From Maylandia zebra (lineage: Eukaryota; Chordata; Actinopteri; Cichliformes; Cichlidae), in NCBI RefSeq assembly GCF_041146795.1, contig NC_135175.1:25189075-25253074 (forward strand): a stretch of DNA of 64,000 nt, in the 5' to 3' direction. A model generated the notes under the pieces. That model made no database searches. It was not told the DNA's origin and saw only the letters and a list, made by a program, of their open reading frames with translations. The translations under genes and the position numbers were made by a program. Below are positions 20,199 through 33,882 of the stretch, piece by piece. Position 1 is the first letter of the stretch. The number at the start of each line of letters is the position of its first letter.

Positions 20199-23100
20199 TC
20201 ACTGGGCTTCCAACTCCTCGTCTGAGACGTCGTCAGGGGAAAGGATGCGAGTGTTACTGGCCCGAATACTGTTGATGTTGGTGCAGGAGACGAGACTAGC
20301 AATTCCCATCAGACTCACCCCGGTCCCGTCCAGGTTCACCTGAGCCAGGTGGATTTGTTTCAGGAACTTTAGACCTGAAAGGAAGAGAAGAACATATACT
20401 GGGTCTGTTCATCTGAGCAAACAAAACTATAAAATCAAAGACCACCTTTGCCTTTAGACAACAATTCTGATGGCAAAAGAGCCAAACGGGACAGGCCAAA
20501 AAAAAAGAAAAGAAATAAAGAACATGTTAACTTAAAAAAAAAAAAAAAAAAAAAGACCACCTTAGAGCTGGACGTTACCGTGATCTGTAATCCGCGTGCG
20601 GCTGAGATTAAGTTTAACAAGCTGACTGCAGCGGATCAGACCTTTCCTCACCACGTTGTCCCCCACCTGAGTGCTGGCTAACCCCAACACCTGGAAAAAA
20701 AAATAGAAAAATAGCAAAATATTAAAACCTCTGCATCAAATATTTTTTATCATAAACTGGTCTTTACATTTTGATTTCGGCCTACTCTGAATGCCCAATG
20801 ATCGATTTCATTCTGCAAAAGAGTTTAACTGTGATGCTAAAATAATAAATTGAAGCCCAGCTAGTATAAAATAAGCAGGTTATCTGGTCAGACAGCTTGG
20901 GTGTCAAACGGTGAAATGAGAATCACATCGATGATCAGACACACAGACTTTACTAACATGGTTTAATTTAATCAAACATGTATGTACCATAGATCGATGT
21001 CACATTCAATCATAGACAGTATAAAGACAGATGTAGCTTCTGTGTTTGAAGAGTGAATCCAGTTCAGAAATGCCTGTTTTTTTAATGCCCACCAGATGAT
21101 CATAATTGTGGTTACAAAAGGAAACAAAACAGCTCTCTGACTTGACCTCAACAATCACCTACCTGGTAAGTTTATGAGATCAGACACTCATTTTAAGTCA
21201 CACTAAATAAAATATTGAGTCTATTTTGTAAATCCATTCTCTTTATCTAATTCAGAGTCAGTCTATCCTAGTTGTCACAGGCACAAGTCACCAATCTATC
21301 ACAGGGCTACTATTTACACTTGCACTCGCACAAGGATAAAGCAACACCTGGATAGTACTTATTGGGATAGTCACCTGAAGGTGCGGCAGACAGGTTATGA
21401 GGTCGGCCACTCCTCGGCTGGTGACTGCAGTCCGATCCAAACAGAGCTCCTGCAGCTCCTGCATGCATCGCAGGGAGGGAAGCCCTGCATCTGTCACCTG
21501 AGTGTTGCTAAGTGACAGCTTCTTCAATCTACACAAAGTAAACACAAAACTCCTGTCAGCATTTTAATCGCAAGGAAACACCTGATATGATGGTGTCAGT
21601 GAGTGTGGAAAGGACCTGGTCAAGGTGGAGAGGTGGCTGACTCCCTGGTCTGTAACCTGTGTGTAGTCTGTCAGGTCCAGCTCTGAGAGCAGAGTCAGTC
21701 CGGAGAGGAATGACAGCCCACTGTCTGTCACAGAGTGGCGTCCAGGGAGGGTGATGCGAGTCAACTTCAGACCTAGAAGTAAAGTAGACACCTCACAGAT
21801 TCACCACAGACTTTCATACTGCAAGCTCACTCCATGCCTACCCTCATTCTTTTAATTCTTTTGCTTTATGCTCTACAAACCTGAGATGATCTGAAGGGCA
21901 TGACTGCCATCTGCTACAGGGATTCCCACCAAAGTGAGGGAAGTCAGGGCAGGGTGGGTAGCAAGGTGCTCCAGAGATGCCTCAGTCACACCTGTCCCAT
22001 CCAAGTTGAGCGTCTGCAGGCTGGACATCGCTGCTAGAGCCGTCAAATCCTTAACCTGAAAGAAAAACGCACAGCAAGTCGAGTAAATATCACTGAAGAT
22101 CAGAGCAGTGTCACCAGCTGAATAGACCTTGCTAACAGAGATAAAGTACTTTAGTCTGTTTGATGCTGAGAAGTCGCAGCTGTGGCACAGAGGTGGGGAG
22201 CACAGCTAGTGTGGTTTCAGTCACTGCTGTCTGGTTCAGGCTTAGCTGAGAGAGGCAGGACGGCACTGACTGGAGGTACAGTACCATCCCAGCATCTGTC
22301 ACTTTGGTCTGGTCCAGGGACAGGAAACACAAGTTCTTCAAACCTTAAAGGCATCAGCAGAAGGGAAATATGTATGTTGAATAAAACTACTTAAATAAGA
22401 ACAGCTTATTCTGAGATCCAGTTTTGTAAATGTTGTCAACAGTGATGTTTGTGTGTGTCCAACCTGTGATATGCTGCAGGCAGGAGTCAGTCAGCTTACT
22501 ACAGGAGGCCAGATTGAGGTACTGGAGTTTGACCAGGGTGGACAAGATACAGAGGCCAGAGTCTGGGAATAAAAATAAATAAATAAATACAAAGACAGGG
22601 ACAAACTGAAGAGCAGACTTTGCAGAAATTTGACAACTAAATTGATAAAAAGCCTAAAAACTACCAGATATAAAATGTTTTACCAGTGATGAGAGATGAG
22701 TTGACTAAACTCAGGTGCTTCAGGGCAGTGAAGGCCCGCAACTGCCGTAGGAGCTCATTGGTGGAGTACGGGTAGCTGTTTAAGACAAACTTCTGGATCG
22801 GGCAGCCGAAGAACAGCTCCAGGGTGCGTGGATGTAGCAGCCTCTCATGAGACATGTGGTTGAGCAGAAGTTCTGCTAGCTCTGGGGTCAGACCTGCTAG
22901 ACTGCTGCTGTACTGCATGCTGGGAGCTGTGAGACACAGAGTCAAGAGTGAGCAAACAGCAGCGAGCAAACAAAGCTGTGAGGCACAGTTCTGTGAAGTT
23001 TTGTGACTCTTACCAGTCATGAGGTGGACCGTTGCGCGGATAGCCAAGGCACATAGTGAGGGCACGCTGGGTGCTCTGAAGGGTCTTTTAGGGGGTGATG

Positions 23101-32100: not shown

Positions 32101-33882
32101 ATGCGAGAGTACTAACAGGGACTAGAAAGAGGGAGCGCATTTCTTCCATATTAGCTGTTAAACCTAGACGTGAACTGAAAATCCTTCTCTTCTTATCTTA
32201 TCTTAAAGAGCTAATAGTACCTCACTGTCCTAACAGAGAAGTTCATTCTCAGACTGCTGGTTTACTTGTGGTTCCTAGAGTTTCTAAAAGTCAAATGGGA
32301 GGCCGAGCCTTCAGTTTTCAGGCCCCTCTTCTGTGGAGCCAGCTCCTAGTTTTGATTCAGGAGACAGACACCCTCTCTACTTTTAAGATTAGGCTTACGA
32401 CTTCCCTTTTTGATAAAGGTTAGTGTGTGGGCTGTATCAGGTGACCTTGAATCATCCCTTAGTTATGCTGTAATAGGCTCTAGCTGCTTGGGGATTCCCA
32501 TGGTGCACTGTGCATTTCTTCTTCACTCATCTCCCTGTATTTTTACACACCACTACTGCATTTAATCATTAGTAATTATTAAACTCTACTCTCTCATATA
32601 GTTTTGTCCTGTTTCTTATTCCCCTCACCCCCAACTGGTAATGGCAGAAGGCTGCCCCTCCCTGAGCCTAGTTTCAACTGTTTTTTTCCTATTAAATAGG
32701 GATTTTCCTTACCACTATTGCCAAGTGCTTACTCAGAGATGGTCATCTGATTGCTGGGTGTCTTTCTAATATCCCTACACTATAAAGCATCTGTTGCTGT
32801 GTACTGGTGCTATATAAATAAAACGGAACTGAAAAAAGACGAACATAAATAAAGGCACAATAGCCAGTATTTTTCTTCTTCAGTGGTTTAATAATACTGA
32901 TTAAGTTAACCAAAGGCGGCTTTAGTGTTTGCAGATCACTGGTAGTTCCCAAATCGTGTGCATTAATGCATGTCGGCCCAAAAACCCTTGAATGAGCGTT
33001 AAATTTATTGTATCACTGTAGAATAAAAAGTCTGATTGACAGCAAGGAGGTAAAGTCCAGTGCAACTAAAAAGAACTGATGACACTGCAGAAGACATCAA
33101 GAGAACTTCCTGCGTATACGAATGCATGCGTGCCTTAAGGTTTGCCCTTTGGTGTGCTTTGGACACAAAATGTTTGAGGAAAAAAAACAATTACAGTAAA
33201 TTTGCAGATGAAATATTAACCATTTACTCCATAACAACATCAGCTATGCGAACTAGTAATTACCTGTTATATTGGCATTCCCATAATGCTAAGAAGTGAT
33301 CATATTTTATTGCCTAATGCAGCCCTTATAAACTGTTTCAATACTAAAATAGAGCTACTCTTCTCATTCGTCTTTGATAGCATAATAAAACCGTAAAAAC
33401 TTTACCATATGTCCCAAATAAGGGCCCTAGAAGTGGGTGTTATAGTGTTATTAAATTGTTGTCGGTAAACCTAACACGTACAGACATTATACATCAGTAC
33501 CATTGTCTGTGTTGCAGTGTGGGCTGCAACTCACAAGGGTAATTTCCATAATTATTTATTATCCGTTTCCCCTTAAAACCCTCCAATTCTGAGTTAAACA
33601 TTAGTTCGCAAAGTTTACAGTAGGAAATTTTATTCCATGTCCGAGTGAAAGACATCGACTCACAATCGAAACTGCAAATTTAAACTTAAAACAGTAGCTA
33701 GCAAGCTTAGCCCAGAGCTAATGCTAAGTATGTTGGTATTTGGAGGTCTGTCAACAACAGCGTTAGCATGAGCTAACCGTTAGCTGAACGGGCTAGCAGG
33801 CTGATATTTTGGTGCTACACAGGGTGATGTGTCGGAAGCTAGTAGATAATTTGGAGCTTACCGCAGGGTTAGAGGAACTCAT
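20199..33882 (-). CDS. UBA-UBX-leucine-rich-repeat protein, predicted p97/VCP-ubiquitin adaptor (unrecognised gene)
   Basis: Seventeen minus-strand exons: 33882-33862, 31603-31497, 31364-31225, 31025-30868, 29639-29481, 26547-26118, 24924-24826, 24297-24207, 23237-23014, 22926-22684, 22562-22464, 22343-22150, 22055-21881, 21772-21616, 21528-21375, 20690-20579, 20374-20199. Every junction keeps frame, giving 912 residues. UBA domain about 8-45 ([14 protein letters not shown]). Charged helix 110-160 ([21 protein letters not shown]). UBX about 196-272, with Arg 197 and the FPR loop at 237-239 that in known UBX proteins contact p97. Acidic/proline-rich linkers 273-480. From about 520, leucine-rich repeats of the F-box/RNI type ([46 protein letters not shown]). 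Acidic C-terminus [11 protein letters not shown]. By analogy it should bring ubiquitinated clients to p97, with the LRR half choosing clients. Start is the only ATG just before the UBA exon. Gene name unknown to me. Confidence 0.85.
24202..24207 (-). other. GC-AG splice donor, intron 8 of the UBA-UBX-LRR gene
   Basis: On the minus strand the exon ends CTCAG and the intron begins GCAAGT, the standard GC-donor consensus. No GT donor nearby keeps frame with the exon starting at 23237, while the GC site does (phase 2, giving Arg-Glu-Gly-Pro). Intron is 24206-23238. Confidence 0.65.
26657..26818. repeat. Compound microsatellite (TA)44(CA)37
   Basis: Perfect TA repeat 26657-26744 directly followed by CA repeat 26745-26818. 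It lies in intron 5 of the UBA-UBX-LRR gene, about 110 bases upstream of the UBX exon's acceptor, in a position where length change might affect splicing. Confidence 0.97.
27644..28776. mobile_element. Non-autonomous hAT-type element nested in the Tc1 relic
   Basis: Flanked by an exact 8-bp duplication GTGCACAC at 27636-27643 and 28777-28784. Ends are inverted: TAGGACTGCTCGATT at the left and the complement of TAGGGCTGCTCAATT at the right. Eight-base duplications and TAGGG-type ends are hAT features. Inside, no transposase is seen. It contains a further TTAA-bounded insertion (27730-28444). Near 28590-28690 it has a TCAGCGGTCTCCACCC..GCGCCACGGACCGG stretch resembling yet another fish hAT end. 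Confidence 0.8.
27730..28444. mobile_element. piggyBac-like MITE with TTAA duplications, nested in the hAT element
   Basis: TTAA at 27726-27729 and 28445-28448 bound a 715-bp segment with inverted ends CCCTTTAAGACC and GGCTTTAAAGGG (10 of 12 matching). TTAA target duplication and CCCTTT ends are the piggyBac hallmark. It holds a 167-codon open frame (27927-28430, plus) with no recognised domain, probably chance. Confidence 0.7.
31990..32835 (+). mobile_element. CR1/L2-type LINE 3' end in intron 1 of the UBA-UBX-LRR gene
   Basis: The frame 32085-32423 reads [20 protein letters not shown], then [14 protein letters not shown] and [13 protein letters not shown], the C-terminal tail common to fish LINEs. 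The 3' UTR follows with the GCCAAGTGCTTACTCA block. It ends with TGGTGCTATATAAATAAAAC, a classic L2 tail. The expected segment between HITP-like and KEL-like motifs is deleted. It is antisense to the host gene. Confidence 0.7.

Follow-up and report, generated by a model that had tools for sequence, protein, structure and literature searches.

A Maylandia zebra gene encoding a candidate p97 adaptor with UBX, SHP-like and leucine-rich repeat regions

A gene on the minus strand of the Maylandia zebra contig NC_135175.1 joins a UBX domain to a long series of leucine-rich repeats (LRR), and it raises the question of what such a protein would do with p97/VCP. Here we report an analysis of this gene, which lies in a window of 64,000 nucleotides (nt; the whole stretch of DNA that was analysed, corresponding to C9:25189075-25253074 in the fish's own assembly). 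On balance, the gene probably encodes a single p97/VCP client adaptor of 912 residues. Its predicted binding to p97 through UBX and two SHP-like motifs is well supported, and we infer that the LRR selects the client.

Gene structure and domain layout

The gene (33882..20199, minus strand) was rebuilt exon by exon from the DNA. It has 17 exons with a total of 2739 nt, encoding 912 residues and a stop, which exactly reproduces the in-frame model of the initial annotation. The exons, all on the minus strand, are listed below in window coordinates.

33862..33882, minus: exon 1, MSSSNPA, with the start codon at 33882
31497..31603, minus: exon 2, most of UBA (residues 16-44); phase 2 end within a Trp codon
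31225..31364, minus: exon 3, end of UBA and spacer
30868..31025, minus: exon 4, charged stretch, probably a coiled coil, at about residues 123-142 (coil assigned by eye)
29481..29639, minus: exon 5, remainder of the charged stretch and first UBX residues
26118..26547, minus: exon 6, UBX body with R197 and F237-P238-R239, proline-rich linker, start of motif A (26127-26118)
24826..24924, minus: exon 7, remainder of motif A (24924-24908) and acidic linker
24207..24297, minus: exon 8, SHP-like motif B (24241-24209, residues 391-401), then the GC-AG donor
23014..23237, minus: exon 9, end of linker and predicted start of the LRR N-cap (from about residue 457)
22684..22926, minus: exon 10, predicted N-cap and first LRR (from residue 545)
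22464..22562, minus: exon 11, LRR
22150..22343, minus: exon 12, LRR
21881..22055, minus: exon 13, LRR
21616..21772, minus: exon 14, LRR
21375..21528, minus: exon 15, LRR
20579..20690, minus: exon 16, LRR
20199..20374, minus: exon 17, final LRRs, short acidic tail and stop

The spliced frame contains 0 internal stops and the remaining two frames contain 43 and 42; when bases were shuffled within each exon, one stop or fewer was obtained in 0 of 2000 shuffles (minimum 17, mean 33). GT-AG borders flank 15 of the 16 introns; the exception, intron 8, is GC-AG, and its donor AG/GCAAGT directly follows exon 8 (window 24206). Codon bias, trained on the adjacent CHGN-domain open reading frame (ORF), preferred the chosen frame in 13 of the 17 exons, a test that alone is not decisive because exons 2, 3, 7 and 9 scored better in another frame. 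The join between exons 6 and 7 is supported by motif A, which is formed only by that splice. Exon 1 is the least certain exon of the model: the 8.4 kb preceding exon 2 contain six ATG mini-exons (strict donor, phase 0, 9-120 nt), of which this seven-residue exon is one, and two other candidates likewise have a purine at -3. No CpG island was found at exon 1, which falls within two 500-base windows with observed/expected ratios of 0.57 and 0.37. Intron 5 holds a long (AT)n/(AC)n microsatellite (window 26657-26819), and an Rfam scan of the window gave nothing at gathering score.

The domain scan proposed in the initial annotation was run against Pfam, which listed 12 families up to E = 1, with UBX and LRR significant and UBA weak. 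The UBX domain (residues 190-265; 2.9e-14, 53.5 bits against a cut-off of 21) is canonical, as had been claimed: it has R197 (in IRLP) and F237-P238-R239 (in GFPRKRF), in agreement with the rule that p97 is contacted by an Arg in beta-1 and an FPR in the S3/S4 loop (PMC10641518). It also aligns with the solved domains of UBXN7, UBXN4 and FAF1, with the FPR loop matched. The LRR half is significant as well (LRR_4, 1.6e-14). When cut by eye at LxxLxL starts, residues 545-912 fall into 15 segments of 22-26 residues each, corresponding to 14 full repeats and one partial repeat because the fifteenth segment runs into the tail. The acidic tail described initially is present but short (6 of the last 13 residues).

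In the PDB, the LRR gave weak matches to the F-box LRR proteins FBXL2, FBXL5 and FBXL17, and of three weak NCBIfam matches, two were to LRR families of the internalin type. A weak match to the NCBIfam family STM4015 (E 0.0024) covers residues 461-589 (window 23062-22468, minus strand, exons 9-11) which span the predicted LRR N-cap and the first repeats, and might indicate the origin of the cap. The 12 Pfam families listed up to E = 1 include neither an F-box nor a SEP, DER1 or UFD1 domain; with no F-box in that listing, we rejected membership of the F-box/SCF group. An AlphaFold2 model of exon 6 alone, made from one sequence, had a mean pLDDT (predicted local distance difference test score) of 52.6 and was not used.

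SHP-like motifs and a possible mechanism

The 191-residue linker that follows UBX carries two motifs resembling SHP boxes, both C-terminal of UBX and both missed in the initial annotation. Motif A (HDWGQGQRL, residues 336-344) resembles the ends of Derlin-1 and Derlin-2 of the same fish, and motif B (residues 391-401) resembles the SHP box of UFD1. The locus that we take to be Derlin-1 (C11) ends in RHNWGQGFRLGGE, the presumed Derlin-2 (C7) ends in GFAWGEGQRLGG, and the presumed UFD1 (C12) has the box AFTGSGNRLDG. Two loci, C21:368898 and C21:935421, have the appearance of processed Derlin-2 copies, with in-frame stops and the same end GFAWGEGQRLGG.

The SHP box of UFD1 (225-FRAFSGSGNRL-235) has two conserved glycines and the contact residues F225, F228, N233 and L235 (PMC5042407). 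Compared with these positions, motif B is identical at both glycines, N and L, and has Trp at both Phe positions. For Derlin-1, five residues are named as p97 contacts or as important for binding (H240, W242, Q244, F246 and R247; PMC10575581). Motif A shares H240, W242, Q244 and R247 and has Gln in place of F246. The linker contains two matches to the loose pattern [FW].{0,1}G.G.RL; of 200,000 linker shuffles, a fraction of 0.00045 gave at least one match and none gave two, and with a variant allowing [RK] before Leu, whole-protein shuffles gave at least one match in 229 of 100,000 and two in 2 of 100,000, figures that flatter the pattern because it was composed after the motifs had been seen.

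On the N-domain of p97, the SHP box has a binding site separate from the cleft used by UBX (PMC5042407), and the SHP box and UBX of p37 bridge two neighbouring N-domains (PMC9941556). In the window protein, UBX and the SHP-like boxes would likewise grip adjacent N-domains of the ring, with the second SHP-like box possibly serving as a spare, and UBA would keep ubiquitylated clients. The LRR, which is the sole large folded part left after UBA, UBX and the SHP-like motifs have been assigned, would bind either the client itself or a complex of client and E3, and place the client over the pore, a job with which SEP helps in p47 and p37. LRR solenoids commonly bind another protein, and their partners are of many kinds.

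Relatives and surroundings of the gene

The fish's own genome (962,127,851 bases in 63 contigs) was the one animal genome searched. A UBX search returned eight exon matches, among which the window gene scored highest. A separate gene on C2, which we take to be UBXN1-like from its layout, led us to reject the window gene as the UBXN1 orthologue. In layout the two genes are alike, both having the order UBA, charged coil and UBX (in the window protein a weak UBA at 16-44, a coil assigned by eye and UBX at 190-265). Of the four introns compared, two coincide in place and phase and two do not. One of these lies before the Arg strand of UBX (SRIQ/VRL in the UBXN1-like gene, CILM/IRL in the window gene, both phase 0), at a site where, judged by eye, the UBXN4-, UBXN7-, FAF- and p47-like genes of the fish have no intron. 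The other is a phase-2 intron in the UBA Trp codon, before the following Leu; its phase in the UBXN1-like gene was deduced from the acceptor side only. The UBA-coil-UBX half probably stems from the UBXN1/SAKS1 lineage, to which the SHP boxes and LRR would have been added.

Within the fish genome, no second copy was found of either the UBA-UBX half (all eight matches were to the window gene) or the LRR half (nine of ten matches were to the window gene), searches of limited reach because the first-half query also missed the UBXN1-like gene. A candidate for a standalone LRR paralogue on C5 (26% identity, E 0.0017) was set aside as, by eye, an LRR-immunoglobulin membrane protein. A SEP search of the same genome listed C15 and C20 only and not the window gene. 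Six peptide patterns taken from the whole protein found no relative in GTDB genomes and IMG/VR, where none is expected because this is an animal gene.

Among known adapters, UBXN1 (SAKS1) differs from the window protein in its length (297 residues in man; PMC10641518), in having no LRR and in having two further introns elsewhere; it is also described as apparently without the SHP box that client adapters typically have (PMC9941556). The window protein looks like a UBXN1 that has the missing SHP box twice, together with a possible recognition domain. p47 (NSFL1C) and p37/UBXN2B likewise combine UBX with two SHP boxes each (PMC10641518), and p47 also has a UBA (PMC9941556); in the window protein, unlike in these two, the SHP-like motifs follow UBX and LRR takes the place of SEP. 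The Derlins, to which motif A was likened, are membrane proteins, and UFD1, the counterpart of motif B, works with NPL4, whereas for the window protein Pfam lists neither a DER1 nor a UFD1 domain. With the F-box LRR proteins FBXL2, FBXL5 and FBXL17 it shares LRRs of the form LxxLxL...TDxGL, but p97 would be recruited by UBX and SHP rather than an SCF ligase by an F-box.

The initial annotation had placed the whole architecture in no known family, and this view holds for the sources consulted. The table in PMC10641518 lists 35 human p97 adapters, 13 of them with UBX, the longest UBX protein being FAF1 with 650 residues, and no UBX-LRR protein was among the matches listed in a literature search of titles and abstract starts that partly covered the subscription literature. 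The combination of UBX, SHP-like motifs and LRR was not found among the human p97 partners checked; the gene may well be present but unnamed in many other animal genomes.

The neighbouring features in the window are the following.

5732-6961 and 8761-9417, minus: CHGN-domain ORFs, CHPF2-like (Pfam)
17707-17958, plus: ABC_tran exon (Pfam) of a gene called ABCF2 in the initial annotation
34766-36007 and 62936-64000, minus: RVT_1 reverse-transcriptase ORFs (Pfam 4.3e-29 and 6.6e-20), by eye of the type without long terminal repeats

The ORFs 13574-13804 and 14220-14579, taken as ABCF2 exons, gave no Pfam match. An exon with a SWIB domain (SMARCD type) is found 5-6 kb beyond the left end of the window, and more reverse-transcriptase ORFs were seen by eye to its right. 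A turkey gene list (PMC8470100) contains SMARCD3, CHPF2, ABCF2, ASB10, GBX1 and AGAP3, and in the part available names no UBX-LRR gene beside ABCF2. This fits an absence of the gene from birds and proves nothing, because unnamed genes may be omitted from such a list.

Weighing the readings

Several results weigh against a client adaptor with SHP-like anchors. The strict SHP consensus F-x-G-x-G-x-x-h (PMC8181520) has 0 matches in the protein, both motifs requiring Trp for Phe and motif A also Derlin-type spacing, and PDB peptide searches with motifs A and B, both very short queries, gave no match. For a further gene of the DER1 family (C12), 10 kb of sequence showed no box of this kind, and on the DER1 loci the loose pattern also matched chance-like minus-strand stretches (L044 and L047). 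Published studies disagree on whether an SHP box and UBX can occupy one N-domain together (PMC8181520). The kinship with UBXN1 is qualified by the two introns that differ by eye (an early-UBA intron, in place of which the window gene has the short exon 1, and the coil introns) and by UBX identities that are about equally close for UBXN4 (23/74), FAF-like (16/47) and UBXN1 (19/64, last exon missing). Finally, the N-terminal UBA of the initial annotation falls below its Pfam cut-off (E 0.0049, 17.1 bits against 22.4), but this region matches the solved UBA 2dai (E 3.5e-4). The initial proposal of a ubiquitin/p97 adaptor stands, as does the layout, and is strengthened by the two linker motifs and by a first half that resembles UBXN1 in layout and in two of the four introns compared.

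The same first half can be read differently. The protein may be an accessory p97 cofactor that, like UBXN1, aids p97-UFD1-NPL4, its LRR providing a surface for localisation or scaffolding (at a membrane, the cytoskeleton or an E3 ligase) and having no part in client choice. The UBXN1-like layout and the two shared introns suit this proposal, as do the many kinds of partner that LRRs bind, and UBXN1 is treated as a possible accessory adapter in PMC9941556. According to the same review, however, UBXN1 apparently has no SHP box, whereas the window protein has two SHP-like motifs, and we consider an accessory role rather unlikely.

It is much less probable that the exon model has fused two adjoining genes, one encoding UBA-UBX-SHP and the other LRR. 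AATAAA occurs on the coding strand three times in intron 5 and four times in intron 6, and several GT donors are weak (for example GTCCTT and GTTTGT). On the other hand, all 16 joins are in frame with GT-AG or GC-AG borders, coding-strand AATAAA is absent from introns 7 to 16, and exon 9 seems to carry linker sequence together with the beginning of the LRR cap, as the weak STM4015 match suggests. Least probable of all is a decaying or lineage-specific chimera without function; that a second copy was not found in the fish genome would agree with it, but the uninterrupted frame of 912 codons, the intact p97-contact residues and the two SHP-like motifs speak against it.

The preferred reading, a single-chain client adaptor, leads to a broader and more tentative proposal. 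In addition to UFD1-NPL4 and the SEP adapters, the protein could represent a third class of client adaptor, in which UBX and two SHP boxes would clamp the p97 ring, LRR would pick the client directly and UBA would read ubiquitin; we regard this class, which fish would have and mammals may lack, as possible rather than likely. If true, this may be a new route by which proteins reach p97. A 2023 review asks about p97 targeting beyond UFD1-NPL4 and the SEP adapters, of which none is considered rigorously demonstrated (PMC9941556). The window protein, which combines UBX, UBA, two SHP-like boxes and a possible recognition solenoid in one chain, would be a direct and testable candidate for such a further p97 pathway.

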